DNA from: Cytobacillus firmus
Lineage (GTDB): Bacteria; Bacillota; Bacilli; Bacillales; Cytobacillaceae
Assembly (NCBI RefSeq): GCF_023657595.1
Contig: NZ_CP098323.1
Location: 4,116,001-4,180,000 of the forward strand
DNA length: 64,000 nucleotides
Direction of reading: 5' to 3'
Shown here: in pieces, positions 224 to 31,610 of the stretch
Layout of the letters: every line of letters begins with the position of its first letter
Position numbering within the stretch: position 1 is the first letter of the stretch
Translations under genes and position numbers: made by a program
Notes under the pieces: generated by a model
What the model was told of the DNA's origin: nothing
The model's database searches: none
What the model saw: only the letters and a program-made list of their open reading frames with translations

Positions 224-274
224 AAAAAGCAAAAAGATGCAAGGCCTTTCAGGCCTTGCATCTTTTTGCTTTTA
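224..274. terminator. Bidirectional intrinsic terminator
   Basis: A near-perfect inverted repeat of about 23 bp per arm with a TTC loop (AAGATGCAAGGCCT / AGGCCTTGCATCTT at the core) is flanked by A- and T-rich ends. It can terminate both the tRNA on the plus strand and the convergent RiPP-like operon on the minus strand, and it overlaps the stop codon of the latter's last gene. Confidence 0.9.
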
Positions 275-1273
275 TTGACCCCTTAAATCATTTAACCTTA
301 TCCATTCGAAAAATTCACTTAAACCATGCCTAACAGTATCATAGCTAAAAAATTGATAGTCTAGGAAGTCCATGTAATTTCTTAAAGATTTATCTGTGTT
401 TTTTTTAAAAGCATCTAAATGCCAAAAATTAGGTCGCCTTTTCGGAAGTTTTTTCACATTCTGCAAATAAGGATTTTCTTTATACACAATCGATAATGTC
501 CTGACTAGTCTTTTTAAGGTCTTGTGGTCCTTAGCATCCCTAAATAAGGTTTCATATTCTAAATGATCTTTTAAAAATATTATCATTTGAATGATATCTA
601 TAAAATATTTTAAAGAATCCATATTATGACGCCATCCATGAAGGCATATCATATAGAAAGTATGGTAATCCGTTAATTCTCTTATGAATCTATATGGGTG
701 CATCGGCTTTGCTTTTTCCCAAAATTCATTAATCTTTAGAGAAGAAGAATTCTCCTTTAACAAATTCCAATGCAATTCAACTGTTAATGGAATTTGCGAC
801 CCTGGGAGTTTTTTGCTGAAGCTGCAATGGAAATGAGATGGGATAGGTTCCTCTTCAACTGTAAAGCCCAAGGAAGTTATGGACTTAATGGCTTTTTCAA
901 GTTGATTTGGCCTTATCAATAAATCAATATCAGAGGTTCCCCTTGATCCAATATGCCCGAAATACTTTTCGGCAAAGATCACTCCTTTTAACGGGATAGC
1001 TTCCACTTCAAACTTATCTAAGTGATTTAGAATTTTTCCTAATTCACTTTTAATAAAAAGATTAAGATACAATGACTCATTATACTTCTCCTTCAATCGC
1101 TCCTGAAAATAAACCGGCGTTTGGTTTAACTTTCCCTGTTCTTTTAATAGATAATAAACCTGTGAAGAGACACCGAAATGAATAATATCTTTTAATGTCT
1201 TCTTAAAAAAGCTTAAATTTTCTGGCAGTGGAAAGCCTGGGTCGTATAATGCCTGAATCCATCTCATGCTCAT
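272..1273 (-). CDS. Nucleotidyltransferase family protein (RiPP-cluster type)
   Basis: 333 aa. It belongs to the NTP_transf_5-like family found beside lasso peptide kinases in Firmicutes. The nucleotidyltransferase signature GS-x4-DxD is at about residues 109-117 (GSRGTSDID), followed by a conserved HWNLL segment near 165. It is the last gene of the 78-aa-peptide operon, 24 bp after the ABC transporter, and ends on the shared terminator. In the pseudomycoidin lasso system the corresponding protein further modifies the phosphate that the kinase places on the peptide. A similar tailoring role is inferred here because the kinase is also present. A second homologue lies at 35168-36346. The substrate is unknown. 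Confidence 0.75.
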   Translation of the reverse strand: MSMRWIQALYDPGFPLPENLSFFKKTLKDIIHFGVSSQVYYLLKEQGKLNQTPVYFQERLKEKYNESLYLNLFIKSELGKILNHLDKFEVEAIPLKGVIFAEKYFGHIGSRGTSDIDLLIRPNQLEKAIKSITSLGFTVEEEPIPSHFHCSFSKKLPGSQIPLTVELHWNLLKENSSSLKINEFWEKAKPMHPYRFIRELTDYHTFYMICLHGWRHNMDSLKYFIDIIQMIIFLKDHLEYETLFRDAKDHKTLKRLVRTLSIVYKENPYLQNVKKLPKRRPNFWHLDAFKKNTDKSLRNYMDFLDYQFFSYDTVRHGLSEFFEWIRLNDLRGQ

Positions 1274-1297
1274 AAAAATACATCCTTTCTAAAACAG

Positions 1298-3109
1298 TTA
1301 AGCAAGCGATAAGGCAGAAGACTTTTTACTTTGGGATTTGGTTTTATGAAGCTTTCTGTAAAGCCCCGGCTGAGTAATTAATTCCTGATGGGATCCCGTT
1401 TGGACAATTTTTCCCTGATCCATAACAACAATGATGTCTGCATTTTCAACGGTTGATAACCGGTGGGCAATAACAAGTGTCGTCCGGCCCTTCATTAAGT
1501 CACCCAATGCTTCTTTGACATGGAATTCCGTTTCACTATCCAAGGCAGATGTTGCTTCATCCAGTAATAAAATAGATGCATTTTTTAATATTGCCCTTGA
1601 AATTGCTAAGCGCTGCTTTTGCCCTCCAGATAATTTAATGCCTCTTTCTCCAATTTCGGTATCATAACCTTCCGGGAGCGACATGATAAAATCATGTATA
1701 TACGCATCTTTCGCCGCTGAAACCATTTCCGTTTCACTGATTCCAGGCTTAGCAAGCATTAAATTTTCACGAAAAGTCCCCGCAAATAGAAAGGTTTCCT
1801 GCGGAACATGTGAAATCATGCTCCTCAAGTTTGATAAAGTAATATCTCCCACGCTGACTTGATCAATGTATACTCCACCTGATTGCGGCTTATAAAAGCT
1901 CTGCAGCAGATTAAATAATGTACTTTTTCCAGCGCCGCTTGGCCCGACAATCGCAATTACTTTGCCGGCAGGGATGGTTAAATTTAAACCATCAAACACT
2001 TTATGGCTTTCATCATAGCTAAAAGTGATGTCGTGAAATTCTATAAAACTCTCCAATGGTTTTGAAACAGAATAAGATGGCAATTCCTCTGTATCAGCAG
2101 GTTTCTCCAATACATCCATGATTCTCTCTACTGCCGTAACCGAACGCTGAAACCCTGCCCACTGTCCAGCCAAACCAGTTAGCGGATAAACCAAATGGTT
2201 TACAAGGTTTACAAAGGTTAATAGTGCCCCCACTGTCATTATGTTTTTGGAAACATAATAGGCTCCAAGGAGAAGGCTTACATAAAAAGTGACAGAACTG
2301 ATTAAACTTCCCCCTGAATAAAACCAGCCCTGAAGTTTTGCGTTTTCTTTCTCAAGTTTGAATAACTCTTCATTTTTACTTTTAAACTTTTCAAAGGATG
2401 ATTTTTCTAAGGTAAAGGAACGGATAACCCCAATGCCATTAAATGTCTCGTTTATATGAGTATTTATTTTTCCGAATAGACTGTGTATCAATCTGCTATT
2501 CCGGCGAAGCAGCAAGCCAAACACCAGCCCAGCCACAAGAGCAATAGGGGTGATTAACAAACTAAGAAGTGAAAGAGTAACATTGATTTGGATAAGAAAA
2601 ATAAATACCGCAATAAAAATAAGGGGCAGCCTCACCAAATTGATAAGACTATAACCAATCACTCCATCAAGACTATGTACATCATTCGTAAAATGAGAGA
2701 TGACTTCTCCTGACCTCATATTCGATACTTTACTTGAAGGCAGGCGTAAAATGTGGCTAAATAAATGGTTTTTAAGATCCTTTTTGACGCCGTTGGTTGC
2801 CACAGTTTCAAAGTAAATATCCATAAAAGATGTAACAATGCTGACCAGCACAAGGCAGATTCCGATTGGCACTAACGCTTTAATTTGGGTAAAGTCAGCC
2901 TGAACGGCTGCATCGGCAATTTTTCCGAAAAATGCAGCGAAGGCAATCGTCAAGAAAATATCCACAGCCAATAGCCCAAATAAAACAAAGTAAGCATTCC
3001 TATGCTTTACAAAAAAAGGCTTAAGTAATGTGAACGTCTTTAAAATATCCTTTATTGTAAAATATTCCTTCATAAGCATGATCAGCCGCTGCCTTCTAGT
3101 GGTATTCAT
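1298..3109 (-). CDS. ABC exporter, fused permease and ATPase
   Basis: 603 aa. The N-terminal half has about six hydrophobic segments (roughly residues 35-330). The C-terminal half is a nucleotide-binding domain with Walker A GPSGAGKST, signature LSGGQKQR, Walker B ILLLDEATSALD and the H-loop IAHRLST. This is the half-transporter architecture of lipid and peptide exporters, so it probably acts as a homodimer. There is no N-terminal C39 peptidase domain, so leader removal would need another enzyme. Its position between the signal-peptidase-like gene and the nucleotidyltransferase suggests export of the cluster's peptide product and possibly immunity. Confidence 0.85.
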   Translation of the reverse strand: MNTTRRQRLIMLMKEYFTIKDILKTFTLLKPFFVKHRNAYFVLFGLLAVDIFLTIAFAAFFGKIADAAVQADFTQIKALVPIGICLVLVSIVTSFMDIYFETVATNGVKKDLKNHLFSHILRLPSSKVSNMRSGEVISHFTNDVHSLDGVIGYSLINLVRLPLIFIAVFIFLIQINVTLSLLSLLITPIALVAGLVFGLLLRRNSRLIHSLFGKINTHINETFNGIGVIRSFTLEKSSFEKFKSKNEELFKLEKENAKLQGWFYSGGSLISSVTFYVSLLLGAYYVSKNIMTVGALLTFVNLVNHLVYPLTGLAGQWAGFQRSVTAVERIMDVLEKPADTEELPSYSVSKPLESFIEFHDITFSYDESHKVFDGLNLTIPAGKVIAIVGPSGAGKSTLFNLLQSFYKPQSGGVYIDQVSVGDITLSNLRSMISHVPQETFLFAGTFRENLMLAKPGISETEMVSAAKDAYIHDFIMSLPEGYDTEIGERGIKLSGGQKQRLAISRAILKNASILLLDEATSALDSETEFHVKEALGDLMKGRTTLVIAHRLSTVENADIIVVMDQGKIVQTGSHQELITQPGLYRKLHKTKSQSKKSSALSLA

Positions 3110-3129
3110 ATGGACACTCCAAATTAAAT

Positions 3130-3585
3130 CTAAAATTGTGGTCTTTTTCTTTTATTTAAATACTTCCTTAATAAGCCTGATAAAACAGGAATCGCCAAAA
3201 TTAACTTTCCCCAGGCATAGGCATGCAGGTCCTCCACGTTTACTTTCCGGCTTGCTTTCTGAACATAAAGCAGCTTCCCGACAATCTTGTCCTTACCTAC
3301 AGGCAGATCAAATCCAAGATTGGTATCCCCTTTAAACACATATTGGGGTAAGCCATGAATCATTTCTGCATGGTAAAATCGGTGGGCAACTAATTGACCA
3401 GATTCTGCCCAAAACAATGTAATATCCCCCTTATTTAATAAGGAAGGTTCACAAGGGATAAACCGGCAAATTTCGCCTTTTTGAATTAACGGGTACATAC
3501 TATCTCCCACGGAAGGAAGATCAATGCACCCGTCTTTTTGGATGGTCCTCTTTAATAAGTTAATCACTTCTCCGTCAAACAGCAT
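3130..3585 (-). CDS. SipW/ER-type signal peptidase-like protease (S26)
   Basis: 151 aa. The motifs resemble the Ser-His-Asp subgroup of S26 signal peptidases (SipW, archaeal and ER type) rather than the Ser-Lys bacterial type. The nucleophile box is GDSMYP with Ser29, the His box is AHRF with His68, and the acidic box is KGDTN with Asp87. A single C-terminal hydrophobic segment (about residues 122-140) could anchor it. It overlaps the PqqD-like gene by 11 bp and precedes the ABC exporter. No B2-type lasso protease is present in this operon, so this protein is the best candidate for processing the 78-aa peptide. The assignment to S26 is firm. The substrate is inferred. Confidence 0.75.
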   Translation of the reverse strand: MLFDGEVINLLKRTIQKDGCIDLPSVGDSMYPLIQKGEICRFIPCEPSLLNKGDITLFWAESGQLVAHRFYHAEMIHGLPQYVFKGDTNLGFDLPVGKDKIVGKLLYVQKASRKVNVEDLHAYAWGKLILAIPVLSGLLRKYLNKRKRPQF

Positions 3586-3838
3586 ATTTGACCAGCCCGC
3601 ATTCCATTAAATGAGAGAGGAACTCTTCTATTTCTCTTTCACTGACTTCAGTTGCCTGGTATTCCCGTCCTACAGCTTGTGTTAGCGACTCAGATGTTTG
3701 TTCCTCCTTAAGCAAAGACCAGCAAAATCCCCCTACATCATTTAACGTAGTAACCGTATATTCTTCCGTATTCAATATAATCCACTCATTATCCAGATGT
3801 GTCGTCTCATAGCTGCTTTTTTGAACATATCTGGCCAT
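3575..3838 (-). CDS. PqqD-like RiPP recognition element protein
   Basis: 87 aa when started at the ATG at 3838. That ATG overlaps the kinase stop codon (TAATG) and has GGGAG about 11 nt upstream. A longer version beginning at a TTG (3856) is less likely. The fold pattern matches PqqD/lasso-B1 proteins: an N-terminal beta-rich part (EWIILNTEEYTVTTLN), then helices with the characteristic 'W-LL' and a C-terminal helix ending LMECGLVKY. Such proteins bind RiPP leader peptides and deliver them to modifying enzymes. It is translationally coupled to the kinase. It is homologous in role to the B1 protein at 36853-37146. Confidence 0.8.
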   Translation of the reverse strand: MARYVQKSSYETTHLDNEWIILNTEEYTVTTLNDVGGFCWSLLKEEQTSESLTQAVGREYQATEVSEREIEEFLSHLMECGLVKYAV

Positions 3839-4620
3839 TAAGAAATCAACTCCCAAAATCGATTGTTTTTTTGAAAATGAAGGTCATATACTGGAACAGT
3901 TTCTACTAATTTATTTAGCAGCTTGATAACTTGCTTGGTTTCTTCTGGGCTATGTGCCCAGTAGAATACTTTATCTAATAATTGAATTAGCGCATCAGAC
4001 TTTTTAAGGTTCGTTCTATTATTATGTAAAGCCTGGTGTAAAAGCTGTATGCTTGCTAGTGGAGCTGATTTATTGGTTCCAGTTGCCTGAAACTCACTTC
4101 TAAAGGGTGAGTCAAAAACAGTTACTTTTCCATCGTCAATCTTTAAAATTGTTGCCTCATCAGAAAGCAGCTCTCTTGGAGCAGACAGTTTCGCTGCCGT
4201 CGACTTTCCTGCGCCTGATTGACCTGAAAAGATATGGGCTTTTCTATTTTCTAAGGCACAGGATGAATGGATTAAGAGACCCCAGTTGTGGTAGACGATG
4301 AAGGAACTGTATAAATTTGTTATCGCGTGCTTTAAAGCAAATTCATTATGAGCATAGATAACAGAATACCTGTAGTCCGATCCTGTCTCAATCAGATAAT
4401 CAGAACGCTGGAAATTTATCTTTTCTTCATGCTTGGAAACTTCAACTTGGTAGTTAACAAATGGTTTTCCAAATCCTTTCTTAATAATTATTTTTAGGTC
4501 TGGATCACTTGTTTTACCCCTAAAGATACTGAAATTCCTTTGAATGAAATCCTTAAAATCTTTTGATTCTGTTGATATCTCTATCTCATGGGTACCGACT
4601 TTCGTATAAAGTAACTCCAT
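3838..4620 (-). CDS. HPr-kinase-like peptide kinase
   Basis: 260 aa. The C-terminal half resembles the catalytic core of HPr Ser kinase: P-loop GQSGAGKST at residues 133-141 and the LLSDE acidic motif at 151-155. The N-terminal half is unlike the HprK regulatory domain, as in the lasso tailoring kinases (PadeK/PsmK type). Those kinases phosphorylate the C-terminal Ser of lasso precursors. The neighbouring 78-aa peptide ends in Asn-Asn rather than Ser, so an internal Ser/Thr would have to be the acceptor, or the function differs. It lies 66 bp after the peptide gene and is the first enzyme of the operon. Confidence 0.75.
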   Translation of the reverse strand: MELLYTKVGTHEIEISTESKDFKDFIQRNFSIFRGKTSDPDLKIIIKKGFGKPFVNYQVEVSKHEEKINFQRSDYLIETGSDYRYSVIYAHNEFALKHAITNLYSSFIVYHNWGLLIHSSCALENRKAHIFSGQSGAGKSTAAKLSAPRELLSDEATILKIDDGKVTVFDSPFRSEFQATGTNKSAPLASIQLLHQALHNNRTNLKKSDALIQLLDKVFYWAHSPEETKQVIKLLNKLVETVPVYDLHFQKNNRFWELIS

Positions 4621-4686
4621 AATTACGAAACTCCTTATATATAAATAAAAAGGGAATAACCTAGACTCACCTCTTATTTAAAATAA

Positions 4687-4923
4687 CTAATTATTTCCTC
4701 TACCTTTTCCATTTCTCTTACCCCCACCTGAACCAGGTCCTGTTCCAGGTTTTTGAGGTCTAGGATCATTAGGATAATTAATTCCTCCATTGCCATCTCC
4801 ATTAGGATCCTTGTTCCCAACCCCTTTATTCCAGCTATGAGCTGTTTCAAAACGAATTGGTTGATGGCTTAAAACCATTGGGCGAATAATTTCTTTTATT
4901 TCATGACAATCCAGCGTTTTCAT
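4687..4923 (-). CDS. Candidate RiPP precursor, 78-aa Gly/Asn-rich peptide
   Basis: A good RBS (TTGGAG) lies 9 nt before the ATG. Residues 1-35 are mixed and may be a leader, with one Cys (C6), Ser19, Ser30, Thr27 and one Trp (W31). Residues 36-78 are dominated by G, N, P, K and D and end in a basic GGGKRNGKGRGNN tail. There is no signal peptide and no similarity to the lasso leader/core pattern. It is the first gene of the operon, directly behind a SinR-like operator and followed by kinase, RRE, protease and exporter genes, which is the layout expected for a RiPP precursor. The peptide family is not recognised. The precursor role is inferred from context. Confidence 0.6.
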   Translation of the reverse strand: MKTLDCHEIKEIIRPMVLSHQPIRFETAHSWNKGVGNKDPNGDGNGGINYPNDPRPQKPGTGPGSGGGKRNGKGRGNN

Positions 4924-5137: not shown

Positions 5138-5602
5138 TTAAAAGGCCGCTTTATTTTTATCTTGTTTTGTGATTTTCCTTAGGACAGCTCCAAATCGAGA
5201 ATTTTTCCTAATAAAATAACACCTATGAACAATATATGAAACCACCCATACGCCAATACAGTTTTTAAACAAATCAAAATAAGAAAAAGATCTAAATGGA
5301 ACATATATCTGATGAATCTCATCTATTAACCCATAAGCTAGGGCTAAACTGGCAGCCAGAATTTCTTTTGTATTGTTCAGTTTCCCAAGGGTTAGGAAAG
5401 ACATTATGAGTAACAAATAAAACAAACCGAATTCAAAAAAATGTGCCAGCTCTAATAATATTCCTATTAACAAAATAACCCTCATATCTAAAAGGCTTGA
5501 TAATGCAGAAACAGACTCAGGGTTAAAATGGCTTGATTGGAGCCAAATAAAACCCATATACAAAAAGGGTAGAATTAAAAGAAAACACCTTATTATTACC
5601 AT
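5138..5602 (-). CDS. VanZ-like membrane protein
   Basis: 154 aa with about four hydrophobic segments (residues 4-20, 40-62, 66-100, 118-140). The VanZ family signature DEIHQIYVPFRSFSYFDLFKN is near residues 95-115. VanZ of enterococci gives low-level teicoplanin resistance. The function of most family members is unknown. It lies upstream of and in the same orientation as the peptide operon, separated by the SinR-like operator, so it is probably transcribed separately. Whether it belongs to the peptide system is open. Confidence 0.7.
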   Translation of the reverse strand: MVIIRCFLLILPFLYMGFIWLQSSHFNPESVSALSSLLDMRVILLIGILLELAHFFEFGLFYLLLIMSFLTLGKLNNTKEILAASLALAYGLIDEIHQIYVPFRSFSYFDLFKNCIGVWVVSYIVHRCYFIRKNSRFGAVLRKITKQDKNKAAF

Positions 5603-9211: not shown

Positions 9212-10315
9212 CTATACTATTTCAGTTACTTTTTTTTGTCTGATTTGTCTGTGTGTATCGGATTTATATCTATTAACATTACCAATAAGATATTTTCCAA
9301 AGGCAGCTTTATTAAATATGTGTGCAGATAATATTGAACAAGTAATACTAGTAATCAGTACAATTATTAAATAGCTAAGTTTGTTAAAAAACATAGGGGG
9401 GGATGCTAATTCTATTAGGTGGATGAATAGCATATGCATTAAATAAATACAAAAAGAATAGTTACTGATTATCATTATTATTTTAGGTACCTTTTTAATA
9501 AAAATGGTTGTAAAGAGAATTATTAAGAAAATGACACTCGTTGTATATAAAACCATATCTATTCTTTTAGAATTTGTAAAATTAATTAGATTGTATTTAT
9601 TAATAATTACAAATAATAAGAAAGTGAAAACTGGTAATAACAAAATAATATATTTATTTTTTATTATAAGAGATAAAAATTCGTTAAAATACTTTCCACA
9701 ATAAAATCCTAATGAAAAATAGAATACCCAGCCAATAAAAGGTAACCAATATCCAAATCTCCAAATTTCTTGTGCAATAAAAAAATTGGGTGGATTTGTA
9801 AAATTAAATATTCCTAAATAAATAACATTGACTAATAAAGCTAAAGGCAAAACAACAGAAGGGGAAAATCTATTGAGGAATTTATTTAGTTTTACATGTA
9901 AAAAGTAAAACTGGAAAATTATTAAAACAAAATACAATACAGAGTGCCCTAGGAAAATATTTTTCACTATTTCAAGCAATATGGTTTCTATGCTAATTCT
10001 TTTTACCTCAATAATCGCATAAATAATATTCATAAAAATATAAGGCAATAATATGTAACCGAATCGTTTTCTAAAAAAACCTTTCGGTAATTGTACAGGA
10101 TACTTTTTAGATAATAGTAATTCTGAGATAAATACAAATATAGGTGTGCCAAATAGACCAGCTGCTAAGAGGTAGTTTAAAAATAAACTGTAGAAGTCAT
10201 TGCTTAAATGTTTAAATTCAACATTAGTTAATTGAATGCTATGCCCCATAACAACAGCTATACACGCAATTGCGCGAAGCCAAAATACAGAGTTTATTGT
10301 AGAATTATTATTCAT
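9212..10315 (-). CDS. Acyltransferase family 3 membrane protein (exopolysaccharide O-acyltransferase)
   Basis: 367 aa from the ATG at 10315, which has AAAGGG 7 nt upstream. A GTG at 10330 would add five residues. The N-terminal pattern FWLRAIACIAVVMGHS (with the conserved R and H) and about ten hydrophobic segments identify Acyl_transf_3. Such proteins O-acetylate or O-succinylate cell-surface sugars using cytosolic acyl-CoA. As the last gene of the eps locus it probably decorates the polymer. Base composition is very AT-rich, like the rest of the distal eps module, suggesting acquisition separate from the core. Confidence 0.75.
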   Translation of the reverse strand: MNNNSTINSVFWLRAIACIAVVMGHSIQLTNVEFKHLSNDFYSLFLNYLLAAGLFGTPIFVFISELLLSKKYPVQLPKGFFRKRFGYILLPYIFMNIIYAIIEVKRISIETILLEIVKNIFLGHSVLYFVLIIFQFYFLHVKLNKFLNRFSPSVVLPLALLVNVIYLGIFNFTNPPNFFIAQEIWRFGYWLPFIGWVFYFSLGFYCGKYFNEFLSLIIKNKYIILLLPVFTFLLFVIINKYNLINFTNSKRIDMVLYTTSVIFLIILFTTIFIKKVPKIIMIISNYSFCIYLMHMLFIHLIELASPPMFFNKLSYLIIVLITSITCSILSAHIFNKAAFGKYLIGNVNRYKSDTHRQIRQKKVTEIV

Positions 10316-10418
10316 TTTTTTCCCTTTCACTTATTGTTTTTATAGGTTTATTGTATATATTTATAATATTAGTCATTTATTTTACTAAACTTTTTTACGT
10401 TCTTCACTCTAAATAGAT

Positions 10419-10447
10419 CCCTTTCTTTAATAATTTGAAAGAAAGGG
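10419..10447. repeat. Perfect inverted repeat in an intergenic gap
   Basis: CCCTTTCTTT and AAAGAAAGGG form a 10-bp perfect stem with a 9-bp loop inside the 345-bp gap between the acyltransferase and flippase genes. There is no T-run after it, so it is a weak terminator candidate at best. A lone GTTCTTT half-site is at 10593-10599. Nothing else is recognised in 10316-10660. Confidence 0.5.
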
Positions 10448-10660
10448 TAATAAGCAAAAACGACTACTTTTAAAGAAGTTAAATTTAATTTGAGTAGAAA
10501 TTTGGATCAAAATTAAGTTCAAAATAACCTCTAGAAAGATTATCTGTTTGCTTAGGAGTTTGCTGAAGTCATTTTATATTCTTTTAAAAATTGTTCTTTA
10601 TCCCGTTACTTTAAAGTTATACTTTAATCTTTTTTGATTCCTTATAATAAAGTTTAAACC

Positions 10661-12208
10661 TTATCCAACGGCCTTAGTTTTACCTCTCGGCAACTTAATT
10701 TTCAATACTGAAAGAGCAATATTAATTAAGTACTGAAACTCCTTACTTTTATAAAAAATGACAATATAAATTACATTAGGTACTATTAAACTAATTAATC
10801 CCTTTCCAGCAAGGGCCAAAAAGTTATCTCCAATTATTAGGCTATTACATATTATTGTTGTAATAAAACAAGCAGCTAATGTTAATAATCCAAATACAAT
10901 ATACTTTTTGAAATACAAAAAAACAGATCTTTTAAACACATACTTATATACTATTACTGGCTGCGTCCAAAACACAGTTGTAAGAGTACTAATTGTTGTC
11001 CCTATAAATATTCCTGCTAAACCAAAGTATTTTACTAAAAATAAAGATGCTATTAAATTTATAAAACCTTCAAATAATGGTGCATACTTATCCTGGACAA
11101 ATAAACCTGCTTTATTTTTAAAAGTTGCAATTGCTGTTCTCATTCCTGTCAAGTAGAAATTAAGCAAAACTATTATAAAGGTTAGATTATTAAGAATATA
11201 TTGACTTCCTAACCACCAACTAATTAATGGCTCTAATAAGTTAAATAAAACTATCACACATAATGAATAGAGCCAAAAGTTAACTAAATAAGTTACCTTA
11301 AAAATCGAATAGTTTTTATCGCTGCTTTCAGTAGCAATTAGATTTCCTATACTTGAATCAATTCCACCTAGCACTGGTTTTACTAAAGCTGCCAATTGAT
11401 TAATGATCATTGTATAATTCGAGTAAATTCCTACAGTTGCTAATCCAATAAAGGAAGATATTAGAATATTATCTATTCCAAATACAAGGAAACCTCCTAT
11501 ATTGTGTAAAAACATTGCTTTTACATTTTTAACTAAATTCTCTTTAGTACTCTTATCCAAAGGATACTTTTCTTTAGTTTTAATATATGAATATCTTTTG
11601 TTAACAATGCTGCCATTTATTAAATTTTGAATTACATAAATTATTAATTCGAATATCAAATAAAGAATATAACTCTTAGTTGTAATAAGGATTATTATCT
11701 TAGCTATAGAAGTAAAAACTTGAAACATCAAATCAATTTTCGCTAGTACATAACCTTTTTGATCCGCATTAATTAAGGACCACTTATGAGCATTCAGATA
11801 TGAGACTATATTCTTTAAAACAAACAAGGAATAGATTAATGTAATATCAGCAATAGAATTGCCATTCTTTATTAAGGTCCCTAAAAAGGGATATATACAT
11901 ATACTAATAAATAAAATTATTATTGATAAAATACCATAAACTTTTTTGTATAATTGAACTAATGCGATAACCTTATTTCTATCATCCTCAGCAAGTGGCT
12001 TGTATAAGTTGTAAACAATACTTATCCCGATGCCGCCTTCAACTAATGCCATTATCGATAATACATTCGTTAAAAGGCCATTAACACCTAGATAATCAAT
12101 ACCTAGACTGTCTAGGAAAGCTTTCCTTGATACAAACCCTAAAATTACAATAACTATTTGTGATAAAATACTTATAGAAATATTCTTTATTGAATTACTA
12201 GTTCTCAT
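10661..12208 (-). CDS. Polysaccharide flippase (Wzx/EpsK-like, MATE/PST superfamily)
   Basis: 515 aa with about 12-14 hydrophobic segments. The N-terminus (NSIKNISISILSQIVIVILGF, FLDSLGIDYLGVNGLLTNVL) is typical of oligosaccharide flippases of the PST family. It would move undecaprenyl-linked repeat units of the eps polymer across the membrane. This locus otherwise lacks a flippase, so it is needed for the distal gene set to make sense. The C-terminus ends LPRGKTKAVG, which is hydrophilic and unlike a flippase end. It may have been supplied by a repeat sequence. Confidence 0.8.
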   Translation of the reverse strand: MRTSNSIKNISISILSQIVIVILGFVSRKAFLDSLGIDYLGVNGLLTNVLSIMALVEGGIGISIVYNLYKPLAEDDRNKVIALVQLYKKVYGILSIIILFISICIYPFLGTLIKNGNSIADITLIYSLFVLKNIVSYLNAHKWSLINADQKGYVLAKIDLMFQVFTSIAKIIILITTKSYILYLIFELIIYVIQNLINGSIVNKRYSYIKTKEKYPLDKSTKENLVKNVKAMFLHNIGGFLVFGIDNILISSFIGLATVGIYSNYTMIINQLAALVKPVLGGIDSSIGNLIATESSDKNYSIFKVTYLVNFWLYSLCVIVLFNLLEPLISWWLGSQYILNNLTFIIVLLNFYLTGMRTAIATFKNKAGLFVQDKYAPLFEGFINLIASLFLVKYFGLAGIFIGTTISTLTTVFWTQPVIVYKYVFKRSVFLYFKKYIVFGLLTLAACFITTIICNSLIIGDNFLALAGKGLISLIVPNVIYIVIFYKSKEFQYLINIALSVLKIKLPRGKTKAVG

Positions 12209-12261
12209 ATATAAAATAGTCCTTTTTATATTTTTTACAAAAAACCTTAAAGTAACTTGTA

Positions 12262-13161
12262 CTATCCAACTCTGGTTAAAATTTCGCTTTCATATTTCTC
12301 ATCATTAATATCATTCACCACTGTTCCGTTAGGAATTTCACCAATATATTTATTTTGTATAGGACGCTTTTCGGTAGCCTTTTGCAAGAACCATTCATAT
12401 TCTATGTCAATGTGACCAATATCAATGGCTTGATATCCTAATAATGATAGATCATATGCTAAAACTGTTGCTGTTGGCCCAAGCGCAATTAAGATTAGTT
12501 TTGACCTATTTTGGTTTTTAACTTCTTCAAAAATTTCTTCGTATTTATCAAACGCATTTGTAGATGGACAAATTATTCTTTCCATTGATTTGGCATTATG
12601 GAATAAATCATTACCTATTCCCAGTCTACTTTTATCACCTTCTACAATGACTATCTCTCTTTTAGTCCATAACTTCTTAAATTTCCTAAACCTTTCTTCA
12701 GCATTGCTTTTATCTTTATGATCTATATATAATCTAGTAACTAAGGAATCATAATATTGTTTCCTCTTACCTATTATTTTATATATTTTGCTACGGTTTC
12801 GATTTAAGTATTTTATCCAATAAGTCTTTGAATTTTCTGTACACCAATCTACATTATCAAAAACATTGGGAATACATACTAAATGTTGTTTATTGTTACT
12901 CTTTATAATTTGTTTTAATCTTTGACTTAATTCTTTTGAGTAAGGTTGAAACAACAAACTCTTCCCTTGCATTAGTCCAAATTCACCATCCCCGAATCTA
13001 CTCATGGAAAAACTACCATTTATTAATTTGGTTAATGTCTCATCAGTTGTTTTTACCATCGGTCGTGGTATTATTCTGGCAATAACTTTATTAAAAAAAA
13101 TCATTAAATTCCCTTTTGCAGATACAAATTTATTGTAAATTAGTAATATAAATTTTTTCAT
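12262..13161 (-). CDS. GT-D fold glycosyltransferase (DUF1792)
   Basis: 299 aa from the ATG at 13161, which has AGGATGG 7 nt upstream. The ATG at 13170 has its only purine-rich box abutting it. The motif RFGDGEFGLMQG (about residues 55-66) is the hallmark of the DUF1792/GT-D family seen in streptococcal serine-rich-glycoprotein and capsule loci. These are soluble, metal-dependent glycosyltransferases. The start overlaps the end of the preceding GT2 gene. The acceptor and donor sugars cannot be told from sequence. Confidence 0.75.
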   Translation of the reverse strand: MKKFILLIYNKFVSAKGNLMIFFNKVIARIIPRPMVKTTDETLTKLINGSFSMSRFGDGEFGLMQGKSLLFQPYSKELSQRLKQIIKSNNKQHLVCIPNVFDNVDWCTENSKTYWIKYLNRNRSKIYKIIGKRKQYYDSLVTRLYIDHKDKSNAEERFRKFKKLWTKREIVIVEGDKSRLGIGNDLFHNAKSMERIICPSTNAFDKYEEIFEEVKNQNRSKLILIALGPTATVLAYDLSLLGYQAIDIGHIDIEYEWFLQKATEKRPIQNKYIGEIPNGTVVNDINDEKYESEILTRVG

Positions 13162-14132
13162 ATTAACCATCCTTTATTTATAAAACCTATAAGGAATTTA
13201 TATATTTTTGGGTGAACTCTCAGAGCTGCTAATAATATCTTTACATTTCTAGGTAAGTAATTAAGTTTTATTGTTTGATTGAAGTAACTATTTAATATCA
13301 TTGCTACCTTATAATAATCTTTCTTATGCTGGTTGAAATCACCATTTTCCACGATCATTCTTAAAACAACAAGTGAGCTATTTGATAATTTTAAAACTAC
13401 CAAACTAGTTAATTCAGAGTAATACTTACTAATAAACTTATACATTTCTTCATACACTAGAACCGCATCAATCTTTATATTCTTTACGGCATTATCCATT
13501 GTGCTTCCTTCATGCTTAATATAATTATATTTGGGGGAGCCAATACAACAAACCTTATTACATTTATGAATTAGTTTATAAGTAAAAGCAGTATCTTCAT
13601 AGGTTATACCAACTGGAAATCGTATATCTTCTAATAAGCTTCTTTTAATTAACTTTGTCCAAACAACTTCATCATATAACTCGCCCTTAAGCATTTCCTT
13701 CATTGCTTGTTTTTTATCATGTATTATTAATGAATGTGTACCGTTGATCTTTAGTCGATCTTTATAATGAATTTTACTGGTACAATTTGCAATATCACAC
13801 TCATAAGTTTCACAAAGACTATAGAGTAACTCATACATATCTGGCTCTATCCAGTCATCACTATCAACAAATCCAACATATTTACCACAGGCTATATCTA
13901 ATCCCATATTTCTTGCAGATGCTTGACCTCCATTTTCTTTATGAATTACTTTAACTCTTGTATCTTTTTTAGCATAAGCCTCACAAATTTCTCCACACCT
14001 ATCAGGAGAGCCATCGTTAATAAGTATCAATTCAAATTCTTTAAAAGTTTGAGCTAATATAGAATCAATACATTTATGTAAATACTGTTCTACTTTATAA
14101 ACTGGAACAATAATACTAATTTTAGTATTCAT
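13158..14132 (-). CDS. Glycosyltransferase family 2 (EpsJ-like)
   Basis: 324 aa. The N-terminal GT-A domain has ISIIVPVYKVEQYLHKCIDSIL, the donor-binding LINDGSPD and the metal-binding DSDDW (about residue 92). It is similar in layout to B. subtilis EpsJ and to capsule GT2 enzymes. It would extend the lipid-linked repeat unit at the cytoplasmic face. It lies 14 bp after the preceding GT4 gene. Confidence 0.8.
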   Translation of the reverse strand: MNTKISIIVPVYKVEQYLHKCIDSILAQTFKEFELILINDGSPDRCGEICEAYAKKDTRVKVIHKENGGQASARNMGLDIACGKYVGFVDSDDWIEPDMYELLYSLCETYECDIANCTSKIHYKDRLKINGTHSLIIHDKKQAMKEMLKGELYDEVVWTKLIKRSLLEDIRFPVGITYEDTAFTYKLIHKCNKVCCIGSPKYNYIKHEGSTMDNAVKNIKIDAVLVYEEMYKFISKYYSELTSLVVLKLSNSSLVVLRMIVENGDFNQHKKDYYKVAMILNSYFNQTIKLNYLPRNVKILLAALRVHPKIYKFLIGFINKGWLI

Positions 14133-14146
14133 ACTGTACTTCCTCT

Positions 14147-15337
14147 CTATTCAACAAAGGATAGAAACCTTTCAAAATCTTCGTTTCCATTAAGAACCTG
14201 CCTTGATAAATTATTTTTAAATTCCATTCGCTTATATTTATCATCAATTAAATATTTTAACTTTTTATAAACATCATCTTCAGTGCAGCCTACAATAAAT
14301 CCGTTATATCCATTATCAATCTGTTCATATGCTCCAATAAAGTTTGTTGTCACAATAGGTTTTTCTAAACACTTTGCTTCAGCTAAAGTTAGACAATAAC
14401 CTTCATGCCGAGATGTTTGAACATAAATATCAGACTGTAAGATATACGGATAGGGGTTGGGTTTTGCTCCTAAAAGAATGAAATCATTTTTTAAACTGTA
14501 CCTTTGAATTAGTTGTTCATACTCTGCACCATCTATACCTTCACCAATACAGTACCATCTGACTTCATACCCCTCACTTCTTAATCGAGATAATACTTTA
14601 ATAGCAATATCTTGACCCTTTTCCTTTGAAAGCCTTCCTACTGTTACAATCTTAAGACCTTTATAGTCATTATCAAATCCCACTGGGATTTTTGACATTT
14701 CCTTTATAACTTCTTTTGGAATTATATTCATAAACACTTCAACTTTTTTATTTATACCAGGTAATTTTTCTATAAGGTTCTTCTTAGCCTGTTTTGATAC
14801 TACATATATCTTTTCATAACTCCGATATAATTTTTCATACAATTTTTCGTTGATCGTATGTTTAGATACATCAAAGTGAACCCAAGATATTTTCTTTTTA
14901 GCAGATACTTTATTTGCTATGTAATAATCAATAATATCCGTCGGACCTTGGTAGGAGATTGCAATGTCATATTTATTTAGATTGTTAGGTACAGCCTTTA
15001 ACACATTTTGATAATACAAGTATCTATTTTTAAAGTACTTGGATATAAAATATGCATTAATAAAAGAAATAACTTTTAGAAACATCTTTTTATTAAGAAA
15101 ATGTTTAACTGTTTGTTGAGGTGGCTGCATGATTATTGGTTTTACATCTTTAAACCATGTAGATTCTTCTACTTTAACCCATTCAGGAATGTATTCTAAA
15201 AATCCGCCTTTTTTCTCTAATAGCATAAGGGTGATATCATATTTATCTTTTGGAATAGCCGATAATAGGGAAATCAATGATTTTTCAACGCCACCAATAT
15301 TCATGCTAGAAACCATAAATAAAACCTTCTTTTTCAT
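14147..15337 (-). CDS. Glycosyltransferase family 4
   Basis: 396 aa. The N-terminal motif NIGGVEKSLISLL and the C-terminal GT-B domain TVGRLSKEKGQDIAIKVL, followed by SRHEGYCLTLAEAKCLEKPIV with the E-x7-E nucleotide-sugar motif, identify GT4. It is clearly paralogous to the next gene upstream (15424-16620), sharing many segments, for example YVQ(T/P)SRHEGYC. The pair probably arose by tandem duplication. It follows a terminator hairpin, so it may depend on EAR-mediated read-through for expression. Confidence 0.8.
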   Translation of the reverse strand: MKKKVLFMVSSMNIGGVEKSLISLLSAIPKDKYDITLMLLEKKGGFLEYIPEWVKVEESTWFKDVKPIIMQPPQQTVKHFLNKKMFLKVISFINAYFISKYFKNRYLYYQNVLKAVPNNLNKYDIAISYQGPTDIIDYYIANKVSAKKKISWVHFDVSKHTINEKLYEKLYRSYEKIYVVSKQAKKNLIEKLPGINKKVEVFMNIIPKEVIKEMSKIPVGFDNDYKGLKIVTVGRLSKEKGQDIAIKVLSRLRSEGYEVRWYCIGEGIDGAEYEQLIQRYSLKNDFILLGAKPNPYPYILQSDIYVQTSRHEGYCLTLAEAKCLEKPIVTTNFIGAYEQIDNGYNGFIVGCTEDDVYKKLKYLIDDKYKRMEFKNNLSRQVLNGNEDFERFLSFVE

Positions 15338-15387
15338 CTTTATTCCACCTCAACCCCCGGCAAAAGGTTTTTATTTTAAATAAATGC

Positions 15388-15425
15388 AAAAACCCCAAGC
15401 TACATGGAACATGACTTGAGGTTTT
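15388..15425 (-). terminator. Intrinsic terminator inside the eps locus
   Basis: On the minus strand, stem AAAACCTCAAG / CTTGGGGTTTT with a T-run. It overlaps the stop codon of the GT4 gene at 15424 and lies before the next GT4 gene. It would cut the long eps transcript unless antitermination operates. Confidence 0.75.
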
Positions 15426-16620
15426 AAAAATCTACCGCTAAATTAAATATCTTTTCTTTCGCTGTTTTGTTATTTATAAGATCTATTTGGAGGTTTGTCT
15501 TTATCTTTTTTCTTAATTTATCATCATTTAATACTCTACAAATAGCTTTATACATTTGATTCTCATCAAAACTGACTAATATTCCTGTTTCTTCATTCAA
15601 TATTTGCTCAGCAGCACCTGTGAAATTTGTGCTAATAATTGGATTATCAAAACATCTTGCTTCAGCCAAAGTGATACAATAGCCTTCGTGACGGGAAGGC
15701 TGGACATATATGTCACACTGTTTCATATATGGGTAAGGATTAGTTTGTTCCCCTAATAGAATAAAGTCGTTTTCAAGATTATACGACTTTATAAGTTGTT
15801 CATATTCATTTCTTGCGCTTCCATCACCTATACAATACCACCTAACATTAAATCCTTCTTTTTTCAGTTTGGCAAGTACAGGAATGGTTAAATCCTGACC
15901 CTTTTCCTTACTTAATCGTCCAACTGTTAAGATACGTACACCTTCAAACTGATCTTCAAAGCCCGTGCCTTCTTCAGCCATTTTCTCAACCAACACTGTT
16001 GATACAATATTTGGAAAATGGTCAATTTTATCATTTATTTTTGGCAGCACGCTAATCAACTTATCTTTTCCTTCTTTTGATACGACAAAAATCTTATCAA
16101 ACTTCTTGTATATTTTTTCTGCAAAATACTTGTTAAACCCAATCTTTGTTACATCAAAATGAATCCATTGAATTTTCTTTTTAGCTTTAACTTTGTGGAC
16201 AATAAAATAGCTTATGAAGTCCATAGGACCAGCATAAGCTACTGCAATGTCATATTGAATTTTACCTATTGGATATTCACGTAAAATATATTTAAAAAAT
16301 AGATTCCTTTCTTTTGTAATCTTAGTAATAAAATAAAGAAAAAATATAATAAGAGCTTTTATGACTTTGCCATTTTTTAAGAAATGTAATGCTGATATAT
16401 GTAAAGGTCTTTTTAAGAGTACCTTAAGGCTATCATCCCCTTTAAGATATACTATATTTACGCAATTAGGGATAGAATCCAGGAACCCACCGTACTCTTC
16501 TAGCATAAATAAAGTTATATCAAAGTTATCCTTCGGCATCTCTGATATCATATTAAGCAGCGCCTTTTCAGTTCCACCCACATTCATATTTATGAGCATA
16601 AAAAGTATACTTTTTTTCAT
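15424..16620 (-). CDS. Glycosyltransferase family 4 (tandem paralogue)
   Basis: 398 aa. GT-B fold with NVGGTEKALLNMI at the N-terminus, TVGRLSKEKGQDLTIPVL around residue 235 and PSRHEGYCITLAEARCFDNPII near 315. It is close in sequence to the adjacent 14147-15337 enzyme and more distant from 16639-17829. It should transfer one sugar of the repeat unit. Its stop codon lies inside the terminator stem. Confidence 0.8.
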   Translation of the reverse strand: MKKSILFMLINMNVGGTEKALLNMISEMPKDNFDITLFMLEEYGGFLDSIPNCVNIVYLKGDDSLKVLLKRPLHISALHFLKNGKVIKALIIFFLYFITKITKERNLFFKYILREYPIGKIQYDIAVAYAGPMDFISYFIVHKVKAKKKIQWIHFDVTKIGFNKYFAEKIYKKFDKIFVVSKEGKDKLISVLPKINDKIDHFPNIVSTVLVEKMAEEGTGFEDQFEGVRILTVGRLSKEKGQDLTIPVLAKLKKEGFNVRWYCIGDGSARNEYEQLIKSYNLENDFILLGEQTNPYPYMKQCDIYVQPSRHEGYCITLAEARCFDNPIISTNFTGAAEQILNEETGILVSFDENQMYKAICRVLNDDKLRKKIKTNLQIDLINNKTAKEKIFNLAVDF

Positions 16621-16638
16621 TAGATTACACTCTCTTCC

Positions 16639-17829
16639 TCACCCTATTAACTGATAGAACTTATCAATTTCTTCAACATTCCCTTTTTTCTCAGATTGCA
16701 AGTATTCAATTATTTCTTCCCTTAAATCAGCATCATTTATCAATTTTATTATCCCTTCACAAATAGCCTCTGCGTTCATATCAACAACAAGACCATTTTT
16801 ACCATCTACCATTTGATTATATACGGCATCAAACCTGGTTGTTACAACTGGTATATTTAACATTCGTGCCTCTGCGATTGCAAGGCCGAACCCTTCAAAC
16901 CTAGATGTCTGAACATAAATATCGGAATTTTTTATATATGGATATGGATTGGCTTTTACACCAATTAAAATAAAGTGGTCACAAAGGTTATTTTCTTTAA
17001 TACTTTTTTTGATTACCTCTATAAGGGGACCCTTTCCCATAACATACCACCTAAAATTAATACCTTTCTCTTTCAGTTTTTTACATGCTTCAAGTGCCAT
17101 ATCATAACCTTTTCCGGCATCAAATCGTCCGATGGTTAAAAGTCTAACACCATTAAAATTATCTTCAAAACTTTGCCCTACATTAGCCATGTTATTGATA
17201 AAGTCAGGGTTATTTATGTCATATAAAATATCTATTTTATTGGTGTATATAGGAAATGTTTCTAAAAAGATGTCATGAGCTGATTTAGAGACCGCTATTA
17301 TTTTATTATATTGATCATAATATGTTTTTTGGAAGTTCTTCTCTTGATTATTTAACCTATAACTGGTATTAACCCATCCTATTTTTTTTCTTGCTATTAT
17401 TTTTTCAGCTACATAAAAAGTTGGGACCCCTTGTGCATAACTTATTGCAATATCATAAATCTTTGGATTACTTTCAATAACTTTAGAAACACTCTGCCAA
17501 AAAATCCTCGCTATTTGTGAATTTTCATATTGTTGGTAACGAATTCGAAGGGAGTAATTAAGTCTTGTAACTAGCAAATTAAATTTAAAGTTTCTTAAAG
17601 AATAGAAGAAGGCTTCTTTTAAGTTTAATTTAGTGAATGCTGTATATTCTAAAGGTCTTAGAATATTTACCTCTTTAGGAACTAATTTCTCAAAGACACC
17701 ACCATGCCCAAATAACATAAGGTCCACTGAGTATTTAGAATAATCCAAAAGTGATAATAGCGTTACCAAACTCTTTTCTGCACCTGCACAGTCTAATGAG
17801 TCTATAACAAATAATAGGTTTTTTTTCAT
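16639..17829 (-). CDS. Glycosyltransferase family 4
   Basis: 396 aa. N-terminal SLDCAGAEKSLVTLL, GT-B core TIGRFDAGKGYDMALEACKKL and the C-terminal TSRFEGFGLAIAEARMLNIPVV. It is the first glycosyltransferase downstream of the embedded sinR gene and starts the AT-rich distal module. Donor specificity is unknown. Confidence 0.8.
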   Translation of the reverse strand: MKKNLLFVIDSLDCAGAEKSLVTLLSLLDYSKYSVDLMLFGHGGVFEKLVPKEVNILRPLEYTAFTKLNLKEAFFYSLRNFKFNLLVTRLNYSLRIRYQQYENSQIARIFWQSVSKVIESNPKIYDIAISYAQGVPTFYVAEKIIARKKIGWVNTSYRLNNQEKNFQKTYYDQYNKIIAVSKSAHDIFLETFPIYTNKIDILYDINNPDFINNMANVGQSFEDNFNGVRLLTIGRFDAGKGYDMALEACKKLKEKGINFRWYVMGKGPLIEVIKKSIKENNLCDHFILIGVKANPYPYIKNSDIYVQTSRFEGFGLAIAEARMLNIPVVTTRFDAVYNQMVDGKNGLVVDMNAEAICEGIIKLINDADLREEIIEYLQSEKKGNVEEIDKFYQLIG

Positions 17830-17870
17830 ATTTTAATTCACCCACAATTAGCTGCTTTATTTTACTTACA

Positions 17871-18221
17871 TTAATTATTTAAATCCTTTATATTCTGCCA
17901 TTTAATAAATTCCAGTAATTTTTTATATTCTTCCAATTGTTCCTTATCAATTCCCGAATTCTTTAAATCCGTTACAAATTCTAACCATTCTTTATCAAGC
18001 TGGTGATTTTGAGTCTCGGTTGGCTTCTCTGTGTTCAATAATTCCTTAAGCTCGACATCCAAAACCAAAGCCAGTTTTTCCATTACATTTACCGAAGGAT
18101 TTTTATTCAGGTTTCTTTCGATATTGCTTAGATATGACTTTGCAATCCCCGCCCTATCTGCAAGCTCTGTTAAGGTTAGACCTCTTCTTTTGCGAATTTC
18201 ATAAATATTTTTTCCTATCAT
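17871..18221 (-). CDS. sinR: SinR-family biofilm repressor
   Basis: 116 aa. The N-terminal XRE helix-turn-helix (MIGKNIYEIRKRRGLTLTEL, then AGIAKSYLSNIERN, residues 1-60) closely tracks B. subtilis SinR, including the DNA-reading helix. Residues 75-112 match the SinI/SinR oligomerisation domain (LDKEWLEFV, DKEQLEEYKKLLEF, KW). SinR represses eps and tapA operons by binding GTTCTYT sites. The gene is between epsN and the distal glycosyltransferases rather than beside sinI, so it should be subject to the eps promoter that it is predicted to repress. SlrR is the main alternative name. RBS is AGAGGT. Confidence 0.8.
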   Translation of the reverse strand: MIGKNIYEIRKRRGLTLTELADRAGIAKSYLSNIERNLNKNPSVNVMEKLALVLDVELKELLNTEKPTETQNHQLDKEWLEFVTDLKNSGIDKEQLEEYKKLLEFIKWQNIKDLNN

Positions 18222-18258
18222 TCTTGATACCTCTTTATCCCTAGGGTTTGGTTTAGGT

Positions 18259-19422
18259 CTACACCTTTACTTTCATTGTACTTTTTATACATTCAGTTAC
18301 CCTTGTGAGTTCTTCTTCAGATAAATTTGATCCTGAAGGCAGGCATATGCCCGACAAAAATAATTCATCTGACACACTTTGGTCTACTTTATGAGAGTAA
18401 TATTTCACATCTTTAAATAACGGCTGCAGATGCAGTGGTTTCCAAACTGGCCTGGCTTCAATATTTTCATCAGTTAAAGCTTCCAAGAGTGTACTTGATG
18501 AGACACCAGCTGCATGTTCATCTATTGTTAATGCGGTGAGCCAGCGATTTGAGAATGTGTTTTCCAGTTCTGGCATGAACTGAAGGCCCGGAAGATGAGA
18601 GAGCTCTTGAAAATATTGTGAGAATATTAACCTTCGTGCCATCACTCTTTCATCTAAAACCTCCATTTGACCTCGGCCAATTCCTGCCAGAATATTGCTC
18701 AGCCTATAATTGTATCCTATTTGGCTATGCTGATAATGTGGGGCTGGATCTCTTGACTGCGTAGCCAGGAAGCGGGCTCTTTTTAATAACTCTGTATCAT
18801 CTGAAATGAGCATTCCTCCGCCTGATGTAGTGATAATCTTATTCCCGTTGAATGAAAATACCCCATACTTTCCAAAGGTTCCACTAGGCTTTCCTTTATA
18901 GCTTGAACCAAGAGATTCAGCCGCATCTTCAATAATGGGAACATCGTATCTATTACTAATAGCGAGAATTTCATCCATCTTTGCGCTTTGTCCATATAAA
19001 TTGACCACTATAACCGCTTTTGGAATCTTTCTTTCTCTGGCTGCCTCTGCAAATGCTCTTTCAAGCGCTTCCGGAGACATGTTCCACGTTTCCGGCTCCG
19101 AGTCGATAAAGACAGGTTCTGCTCCTTGATAAAGAATCGGGTTGGCACTTGCTACAAATGTAAGTGAAGAACAAAAAACAGTATCACCTTTTTTTACATC
19201 TAATAAAGAAAGAGCCAAATGAATTGCAGCTGTCCCTGAACTTACAGCTACTGCTTCATTGACTCCTGTATACTGAGCTATTTCTTTTTCAAAAGCATCT
19301 ACATTAGGTCCGAGCGGCGCGATCCAATTAGATTCCATCGCTTCCTGGATATACTTGATCTCATTGCCGGATAAATGAGGCGGTGAAAGATAAATTTTGC
19401 TTTTATTTGATGTATGGATCAT
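18259..19422 (-). CDS. epsN: EpsN-like PLP aminotransferase
   Basis: 387 aa. DegT/DnrJ/EryC1 sugar aminotransferase: AVAVSSGTAAIHLAL near residue 57, IIEDAAESLGSSYKG near 150 and the PLP lysine in FSFNGNKIITTSGGGM near 184. It converts a 4-keto sugar made by the EpsC-type dehydratase to a 4-amino sugar, which EpsM then acetylates, feeding UDP-N,N'-diacetylbacillosamine-type precursor synthesis. It starts at the codon following the epsM stop. Confidence 0.88.
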   Translation of the reverse strand: MIHTSNKSKIYLSPPHLSGNEIKYIQEAMESNWIAPLGPNVDAFEKEIAQYTGVNEAVAVSSGTAAIHLALSLLDVKKGDTVFCSSLTFVASANPILYQGAEPVFIDSEPETWNMSPEALERAFAEAARERKIPKAVIVVNLYGQSAKMDEILAISNRYDVPIIEDAAESLGSSYKGKPSGTFGKYGVFSFNGNKIITTSGGGMLISDDTELLKRARFLATQSRDPAPHYQHSQIGYNYRLSNILAGIGRGQMEVLDERVMARRLIFSQYFQELSHLPGLQFMPELENTFSNRWLTALTIDEHAAGVSSSTLLEALTDENIEARPVWKPLHLQPLFKDVKYYSHKVDQSVSDELFLSGICLPSGSNLSEEELTRVTECIKSTMKVKV

Positions 19423-20678: not shown

Positions 20679-20681
20679 AGC

Positions 20682-20849
20682 CTACAACTCCCAATTTTGT
20701 TCTGATGTTCCTATAAAGCTGCGAATCCTATTTTGTATTTCATCCAAAACTTCTTCTGTTTTGATGTACTCTGATTGATTTACCTTTTTATAAACATCTT
20801 CCAGTAATTCCTTTAGCTGCTCCTGCGAAAATTTTCTGGATAAGCTCAT
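20682..20849 (-). CDS. Small helical protein of unknown function, 55 aa
   Basis: An ORF between galE and epsL, starting with ATG behind a GAGG box. The sequence is charged and predicted helical (FSQEQLKELLEDVYKKV, then EEVLDEIQNRIRSFI), with no membrane segment or Cys. The tight packing (9 bp after galE, 3 bp before epsL) supports a real gene. Its two-helix layout is loosely like the SinI/SinR dimerisation domain, but I cannot assign a family. Confidence 0.6.
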   Translation of the reverse strand: MSLSRKFSQEQLKELLEDVYKKVNQSEYIKTEEVLDEIQNRIRSFIGTSEQNWEL

Positions 20850-20858
20850 TACTATTCC

Positions 20859-21950: not shown

Positions 21951-21967
21951 TCTACAACCTCCCCGCC

Positions 21968-23167: not shown

Positions 23168-23171
23168 TATG

Positions 23172-24332: not shown

Positions 24333-24351
24333 TCTCTTCCCCCCATGCCCT

Positions 24352-25431: not shown

Positions 25432-25470
25432 TTTACCTATCCTTTCAAAAAAGATACCCATTCATAATTG

Positions 25471-26361: not shown

Positions 26362-26366
26362 TCTAT

Positions 26367-28612: not shown

Positions 28613-28622
28613 AGGCTTCTCC

Positions 28623-29504: not shown

Positions 29505-29521
29505 TATATAATCCGCCTTTC

Positions 29522-31351: not shown

Positions 31352-31384
31352 GTTTTCCCTCCTTTACATGATTTTCGATTACAT

Positions 31385-31600: not shown

Positions 31601-31610
31601 TTAATAATTG

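Follow-up and report, generated by a model that had tools for sequence, protein, structure and literature searches.

The six nearly contiguous minus-strand genes that span positions 272-4923 of the window (the whole 64,000-nucleotide stretch of Cytobacillus firmus DNA analysed here, from a genome of one 4.98 Mb contig) very probably (probability about 0.94) form a biosynthetic operon for a linear polyphosphorylated peptide (LPP), a class of RiPP published recently (PMC13381572, Nat Commun, May 2026). The predicted course comprises RRE capture, Ser3 polyphosphorylation, S26 cleavage, export, and an LppN step. Gene content, conservation, motifs, catalytic residues, predicted folds, and synteny form the basis of this assignment. 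Together with a lasso cluster and exopolysaccharide genes, the LPP operon makes up a three-part locus, of which it occupies the downstream end (Table 1).

The operon and its published counterpart

LPP clusters are reported to consist of lppA-K-B-S-D-N, in that order, with a core set of SpI-like peptidase, discrete RRE, HprK-like kinase, NTP transferase, and MsbA-like transporter, and a precursor with the leader motif YxxPxVLxHQxIxFETxxS (PMC13381572). Experiments with the Paenibacillus alginolyticus system demonstrated RRE binding, polyphosphorylation of Ser3 by LppK, and RRE-dependent cleavage after Thr-1 by the SipW-like LppS (catalytic S29, H68, D93), while S3T and S3Y core variants were not phosphorylated and deletion of LppN caused no change in a B. 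subtilis host (PMC13381572). The same report names no established role for LPPs or paeninodins and no established reaction for LppN; its authors speculate that a partner of LppN is encoded outside the core cluster.

The window and P. alginolyticus DSM5050 (lppAKBSDN) share the six genes and their order, the leader motif, a 27-residue leader, the Thr-1/Ser3 spacing, an S29-H68-D93 peptidase, RRE N33, a polysaccharide neighbourhood, and a lasso cluster on the chromosome that carries the LPP genes. They differ in that the window has Ile at leader position -16 and Glu at RRE position 70, its core starts AHSWNK rather than AQSNWK, and its lasso cluster lies 34 kb off with polysaccharide genes between, whereas that of P. 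alginolyticus is adjacent. An earlier sequence-only reading of this DNA had proposed an undescribed system whose peptide belonged to no recognised family. Our full-text literature search led us to reject both proposals, because the cluster is published gene for gene, and the LPP family has been described with its gene order and leader motif (PMC13381572); the operon is therefore ordinary in kind. The words "Cytobacillus" and "Neobacillus" do not occur in the main text of that paper.

Table 1. Coordinates of the LPP operon, its surroundings, and the lasso cluster in the window.
Feature	Positions	Strand	Basis
Stem-loop with T-rich tail on both strands, likely operon terminator	228..270	.	20 pairs, 9 G-C
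LppN-type nucleotidyltransferase (NTP_transf_5)	272..1273	-	PF14907; D115, D117, E166
LppD-type MsbA-like ABC exporter	1298..3109	-	PF00664 and PF00005; best NCBIfam match MsbA-like, below cut-off
LppS-type SipW-like S26 leader peptidase	3130..3585	-	S29, H68, D93; TIGR02228 below cut-off
LppB-type discrete RRE, PqqD fold, TTG start	3575..3856	-	PF05402; match to LppB 9x8z
LppK-type kinase, PEPCK/HprK fold	3838..4620	-	H118, K139, D154, E155; predicted fold
LppA-type precursor peptide, 78 aa	4687..4923	-	leader PMVLSHQPIRFET; homologues at related loci
Core Ser3 codon, predicted (poly)phosphorylation site	4834..4836	-	Ser3 shown in PMC13381572
LppA-type leader, residues 1-27, ending at Thr-1 (predicted LppS cut site)	4843..4923	-	residue count; cut from PMC13381572
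VanZ-family protein, upstream of LPP operon	5138..5602	-	PF04892
Exopolysaccharide locus between LPP operon and lasso cluster	9212..33187	-	21 ORFs with Pfam matches, mostly polysaccharide type
Flippase-like ORF	10661..12208	-	just below its cut-off
Sugar transferase ORF	20064..20678	-	
EpsG ORF	24352..25461	-	
Polysacc_synt_2 ORF	29522..31351	-	
AAA_31/Ptk-like ORF ("Ptk" is our own label)	31804..32475	-	
Wzz ORF	32453..33187	-	
Paeninodin-family lasso cluster	33362..40287	-	NCBIfam: PadeA family, PqqD, B2 above cut-off
Lasso ABC	33362..35158	-	
Lasso NT	35168..36346	-	
Lasso B2	36336..36860	-	
Lasso B1	36853..37146	-	
Lasso K	37143..38075	-	
Lasso A	38204..38341	-	
Lasso C	38356..40287	-	

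From the peptide to the NTP_transf_5 protein, the encoded proteins measure 78, 260, 93, 151, 603, and 333 aa. Gene order and domain matches agree with the earlier description of one operon that encodes a peptide, a kinase, a PqqD/RRE protein, a SipW-type protease, an ABC exporter, and a nucleotidyltransferase. They also agree with its designation as a cyclase-less, RiPP-like operon, which is of the RRE-dependent type: neither a macrolactam cyclase nor a B2 cysteine leader peptidase is present within the six genes, an S26 peptidase being found instead, and none of the six encodes a radical SAM enzyme. The last gene is followed by a tRNA-Ala and the 20-pair stem-loop. Terminator-like sites in window positions 1-6000 (5 found vs 4.6 expected) and promoter-like sites (25 found vs 20.8 expected) did not exceed chance. 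A VanZ match lies on the same strand within 2.5 kb of the kinase at 16/34 family loci vs 2/37 order loci. Between the operon and the polysaccharide genes lies an 857-aa right-handed beta-helix protein (PF13229; 6497-9070, plus strand), which could act on polysaccharide.

The catalytic residues listed in Table 1 were conserved at related loci, the window included: all four kinase residues in 74/74 kinases (a set that counts one genome twice, as L018 and L130), peptidase S29 and H68 in 72/72 and D93 in 71/72, and the D-x-D plus Glu of the nucleotidyltransferase in 72/72. The kinase is 92% identical to a C. oceanisediminis protein and, among the matches listed, 88 and 90% to C. firmus records. 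Sequence searches returned no solved homologue for the kinase at E <= 1 or for the peptidase at E <= 0.1. The predicted kinase structure brought up HprK chains in the Foldseek list and none among the 50 VIA matches listed, while the predicted fold of the nucleotidyltransferase domain appears similar to MenT1 and ANT(2''), a match that does not tell the donor. Two other assignments were set aside. Anti-phage defence was rejected since PADLOC matched the ABC protein alone (two ATPase models). The SynChlorMet cassette shows weak HMM similarity to the window kinase (ScmC, 30.5 of 125 bits) and RRE (ScmD, 24 of 100 bits), far below the cut-offs, and has a radical SAM partner, unlike the window operon.

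By homology to the published system, we infer that in this organism the RRE would bind the precursor leader and present it, the kinase would add one to several phosphates to core Ser3, the S26 peptidase, aided by the RRE, would cut after Thr-1, and the ABC protein would export the linear 51-aa core. The nucleotidyltransferase may decorate the phosphate with a hexose or nucleotide. That the peptide is phosphorylated, S26-cleaved, and exported, as the sequence-only reading had suggested, is probable in view of the phosphorylation and RRE-dependent cleavage demonstrated for the published relative (PMC13381572). A cut after core Ser3 by the -3/-1 rule was considered and dropped, because the published cut follows Thr-1 (PMC13381572). 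A comparable kinase and nucleotidyltransferase pair (PsmK, PsmN) is found in the pseudomycoidin pathway of Bacillus pseudomycoides, in which PsmN is needed for the addition of hexoses to phosphoserine (PMC9266682); pseudomycoidin, unlike LPPs, has lasso topology.

Leader, core, and RRE variation

The window precursor consists of a 27-aa leader and a 51-aa Gly/Asn/Pro-rich core. Its leader carries PxVLxHQxIxFET followed by xxS, and fits the published motif except for Ile at -16, where the consensus is Tyr. Precursors at related loci share one leader and differ in their cores, and the peptide, whose conservation the earlier reading had treated as decisive, is conserved in its leader. Conservation of the patterned motif positions is by construction, because the search pattern fixes P-13 and limits most of the others. 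Among 64 precursors (63 loci), residue -16 is Tyr in 39, Phe in 1, and another residue in 24. Ser occupies core position 3 in 58 of the 64, and Cys and His in 3 each; at the Cys3 and His3 loci, the kinases belong to the set of 74 with the four catalytic residues conserved. Cys replaces Ser3 in L011:9664-9909, L053:10379-10630, and L056:7022-7291 (FETAHCWN, FETRHCWN), each beside a kinase with intact catalytic residues, and His occurs in L109 and L111. Two rows were dropped from the precursor and RRE counts: L018 (same genome as L130) and L020 (no RRE match). Precursors of L104 and L106 were found only by a looser look and stand outside the counts; the same look revealed no clear precursor at L049, L055, L107, or L110, and the sole candidate at L129 is 199 aa long and on the other strand. 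In two proteins of 201 and 144 aa (L133:10779-11384 and L137:8654-9088), whose genes lie on the other strand than the LPP operon, an LPP-type leader (PKILDHQTISFETTISGGGG) precedes Cys-rich, otherwise protein-like sequence.

The closest solved relative of the window RRE is LppB (PDB 9x8z, E 4.5e-24), followed by actinobacterial lasso TbiB1 (E 1.6e-6) and the paeninodin-type PbaB1 (9x90, E 0.003). Against NF033536 (Bacillus lasso PqqD chaperones; cut-off 80 bits) it scores 34.5 bits, while the lasso RRE of the window scores 127.5. In the published LPP system, RRE residues N33 and D70 hold leader residues P-13 and Y-16, and binding was weaker with Y-16A and with D70A (PMC13381572). Given that the window has Ile-16 and Glu70, precursor recognition must differ in part. 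N33 is kept in 64/64 rows, including the window, while position 70 is Asp in 49/64. Combining the two positions yields 36 pairs with aromatic -16 and Asp, 4 aromatic without Asp, 13 non-aromatic with Asp, and 11 non-aromatic without Asp, an association with a Fisher p of 0.0019 when kinship is ignored. On the kinase tree, only five well-supported independent pairs were available, and the sign test was not significant (median p 0.5). Covariation of Tyr-16 and Asp70 as a proven rule is therefore unsupported, and the joint occurrence of a non-aromatic -16 residue and loss of Asp70 serves as a lead.

A non-aromatic -16 residue together with loss of Asp70 is found in the window's clade of three, of which the sister genomes L006 and L007 keep the operon with Asn-16 and Glu70, while the nearest relative, L008, has Tyr and Asp. 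The combination recurs in a second, separate clade of five (L016, L059, L060, L061, L064). As far as predicted leader-RRE pairs go, the Tyr-16/Asp70 contact, proposed as a main determinant in PMC13381572, is not universal, as shown by the lineages that combine Glu70 with Ile-16 or Asn-16. We did not find the Ile-16/Glu70 lineage described in PMC13381572, as far as seen.

Distribution and genomic layout

At E <= 1e-5, a protein search with the kinase produced 678 relatives, of which the best 120 were listed. Strong relatives (E <= 1e-80) occur in 34/193 family genomes and 39/397 order-sample genomes, and six others with weaker relatives (E <= 1e-20) were found in a phylum-level sample of 398 genomes. 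The family and order samples contain one genome per species, their counts are uncorrected for kinship, and they overlap in four LPP-positive genomes (G000, G075, G081, G088) and some others. In the neighbourhood search and precursor alignment suggested by the sequence-only reading, the leader was common to relatives, and the full set of six genes fell within 6 kb of the kinase at 31/34 family loci (31/37 order loci), with the window's gene order at 29 and 26 of these 34 and 37 loci, respectively. The phylum-level genomes L116, L117, and L118 contain distant loci of LPP-like type, YVKPMIINETEIQFETLVSCP being one example of their leaders; two kinase-like and two S26 genes are present in each of L116 and L117, and the L117 locus adjoins a lasso cluster.

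The window lasso cluster includes a precursor, an RRE, and a B2 of its own. Its cyclase scores 403.9 of 525 bits (NCBIfam), its RRE matches PbaB1 (9x90, E 4.1e-34) with G42 and Q79 kept, and its leader carries WxxP, related in type to the YxxP of LPP leaders. As previously claimed, the kinase, RRE, ABC protein, and nucleotidyltransferase of the two clusters are homologous in type, and this homology is distant. In contrast to the paeninodin-family lasso cluster, the LPP operon lacks a cyclase and B2 and has the S26 peptidase instead, and its phosphate is expected on Ser3 near the N-terminus rather than on a C-terminal Ser. A short ORF at 41772-42125 overlaps the end of a UDP-sugar dehydrogenase gene; it is reminiscent of a PAP2-type phosphatase fragment but has no Pfam match.

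LPP clusters are reported to co-localise often with paeninodin-type lasso clusters, with polysaccharide or capsule loci around both; a survey within 12 kb of the peptidase gene linked about a third of LPPs to lasso genes, and lasso enzymes were present somewhere in more than half of LPP bacteria (PMC13381572). In the family, a lasso cyclase (E <= 1e-100) was detected in 32/34 LPP genomes vs 32/159 without LPP (Fisher p 2e-16, uncorrected for kinship), and in the order sample in 31/39 vs 59/358. A distant cyclase that always accompanies the neighbourhood had been named beforehand as evidence against a cyclase-free system; the accompaniment is nearly general in the family, and "always" fails in two genomes that lack a detected cyclase. 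Together with eight in the order sample, these may include misses, at most six (family) or three (order) candidates having been scored per genome. The 32/34 pairing suggests that the two clusters are not independent of each other. Of the 32 family pairs, 29 lie on one contig and three on different contigs, and in 28/29 same-contig cases a cyclase is upstream, on the same strand, and 31-48 kb away, an arrangement that a 12-kb search, as in PMC13381572, would miss. In the exception, G140, the cyclase is 5.9 kb downstream; G122 has one cyclase on each side. Several genomes (G016, G122, G132, G155, G158, G180, and others) have a pair of lasso cyclase genes, either close to each other or separated by tens of kb. 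In the order sample, 21/30 same-contig pairs are within 12 kb, and two are more than 600 kb apart.

The exopolysaccharide locus of the window also includes glycosyltransferases by Pfam match, and a sugar nucleotidyltransferase gene at 28623-29504. Polysaccharide genes were present in all 10 LPP-lasso intervals examined in relatives (of 29 same-contig pairs), each with 13-20 ORFs that match the window's interval proteins and with EpsG, Polysacc_synt_2, AAA_31/Ptk-like, and Wzz matches all present; the fetched interval begins beyond the cyclase gene in G154 and G164 and inside it in G065 and G144. At least one polysaccharide ORF lies upstream of the LPP operon in 30/33 family loci and downstream in 0/33, while at least three upstream matches occur in only 5/37 order loci. 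Among lasso-only family genomes (20 of 32 examined), 16/20 have at least one polysaccharide-interval match near the cyclase and 4/20 none, counts that are not like for like with those above because the lasso-only regions are 20 kb long and the LPP-lasso intervals 32-40 kb. We did not find this regular lasso, polysaccharide, LPP layout in PMC13381572, as far as seen.

Alternative readings and biological meaning

Lasso cyclases join the N-terminus to an Asp or Glu at positions 7-9. A split pathway, in which the lasso cyclase 34 kb away would act on the LPP peptide as well and the S26 enzyme serves as an alternative leader peptidase, would account for the frequent pairing and regular spacing of the two clusters, but we consider it most improbable, since after the Thr-1 cut the window core has Gly7-Val8-Gly9. 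Pairing is not proof of LPP cyclisation, because the lasso cluster is equipped with a separate precursor, RRE, and B2, and LPP and lasso RREs discriminate between the pathways in P. alginolyticus; PMC13381572 ties this separation to residues that recur here, WxxP with G42/Q79 on the lasso side and N33 in the LPP RRE. The LPP genomes in which no cyclase was detected, misses allowed for, likewise speak against it. Decay of the LPP cluster in the window lineage would explain Ile-16 and Glu70 as a lost leader/RRE contact, and is highly unlikely considering that none of the six ORFs is broken, the catalytic residues are in place, N33 is invariant, the sister genomes keep the operon with Asn-16 and Glu70, and the same double change recurs in a second clade.

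The remaining alternative, which extends beyond LPP biosynthesis itself, is that LPP and lasso peptides belong to one functional unit and are attached via phosphoserine to exopolysaccharide sugars by the nucleotidyltransferases. The shared polarity in 28/29 same-contig family cases and the placement of polysaccharide genes upstream of LPP and within every interval examined point in this direction, as do the hexose transfer by the lasso homologue PsmN (PMC9266682) and the speculation on an LppN partner outside the core cluster (PMC13381572). Attachment of this kind is nonetheless unlikely in our estimate: lasso cyclases occur without LPP in 59 order-sample and 32 family genomes, the order sample has mostly short LPP-lasso distances and few polysaccharide-rich upstream regions, and the synteny may equal hitch-hiking in a variable island. 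Any polysaccharide link in this organism is drawn by analogy. Judging from gene arrangement, we entertain only tentatively, and with considerable doubt, the broader idea that lasso, exopolysaccharide, and LPP genes could be one inherited machine, in which knotted and linear Ser-phosphorylated RiPPs would be coupled by their nucleotidyltransferases to sugars of the polysaccharide that the intervening genes make, or be built into it.

An LPP operon thus remains by far the best explanation of the six genes. In this family, LPP genomes almost always have a lasso cyclase, yet far from the LPP operon and behind polysaccharide genes; if this layout holds, the role of LPP and lasso peptides would have to be sought in polysaccharide.
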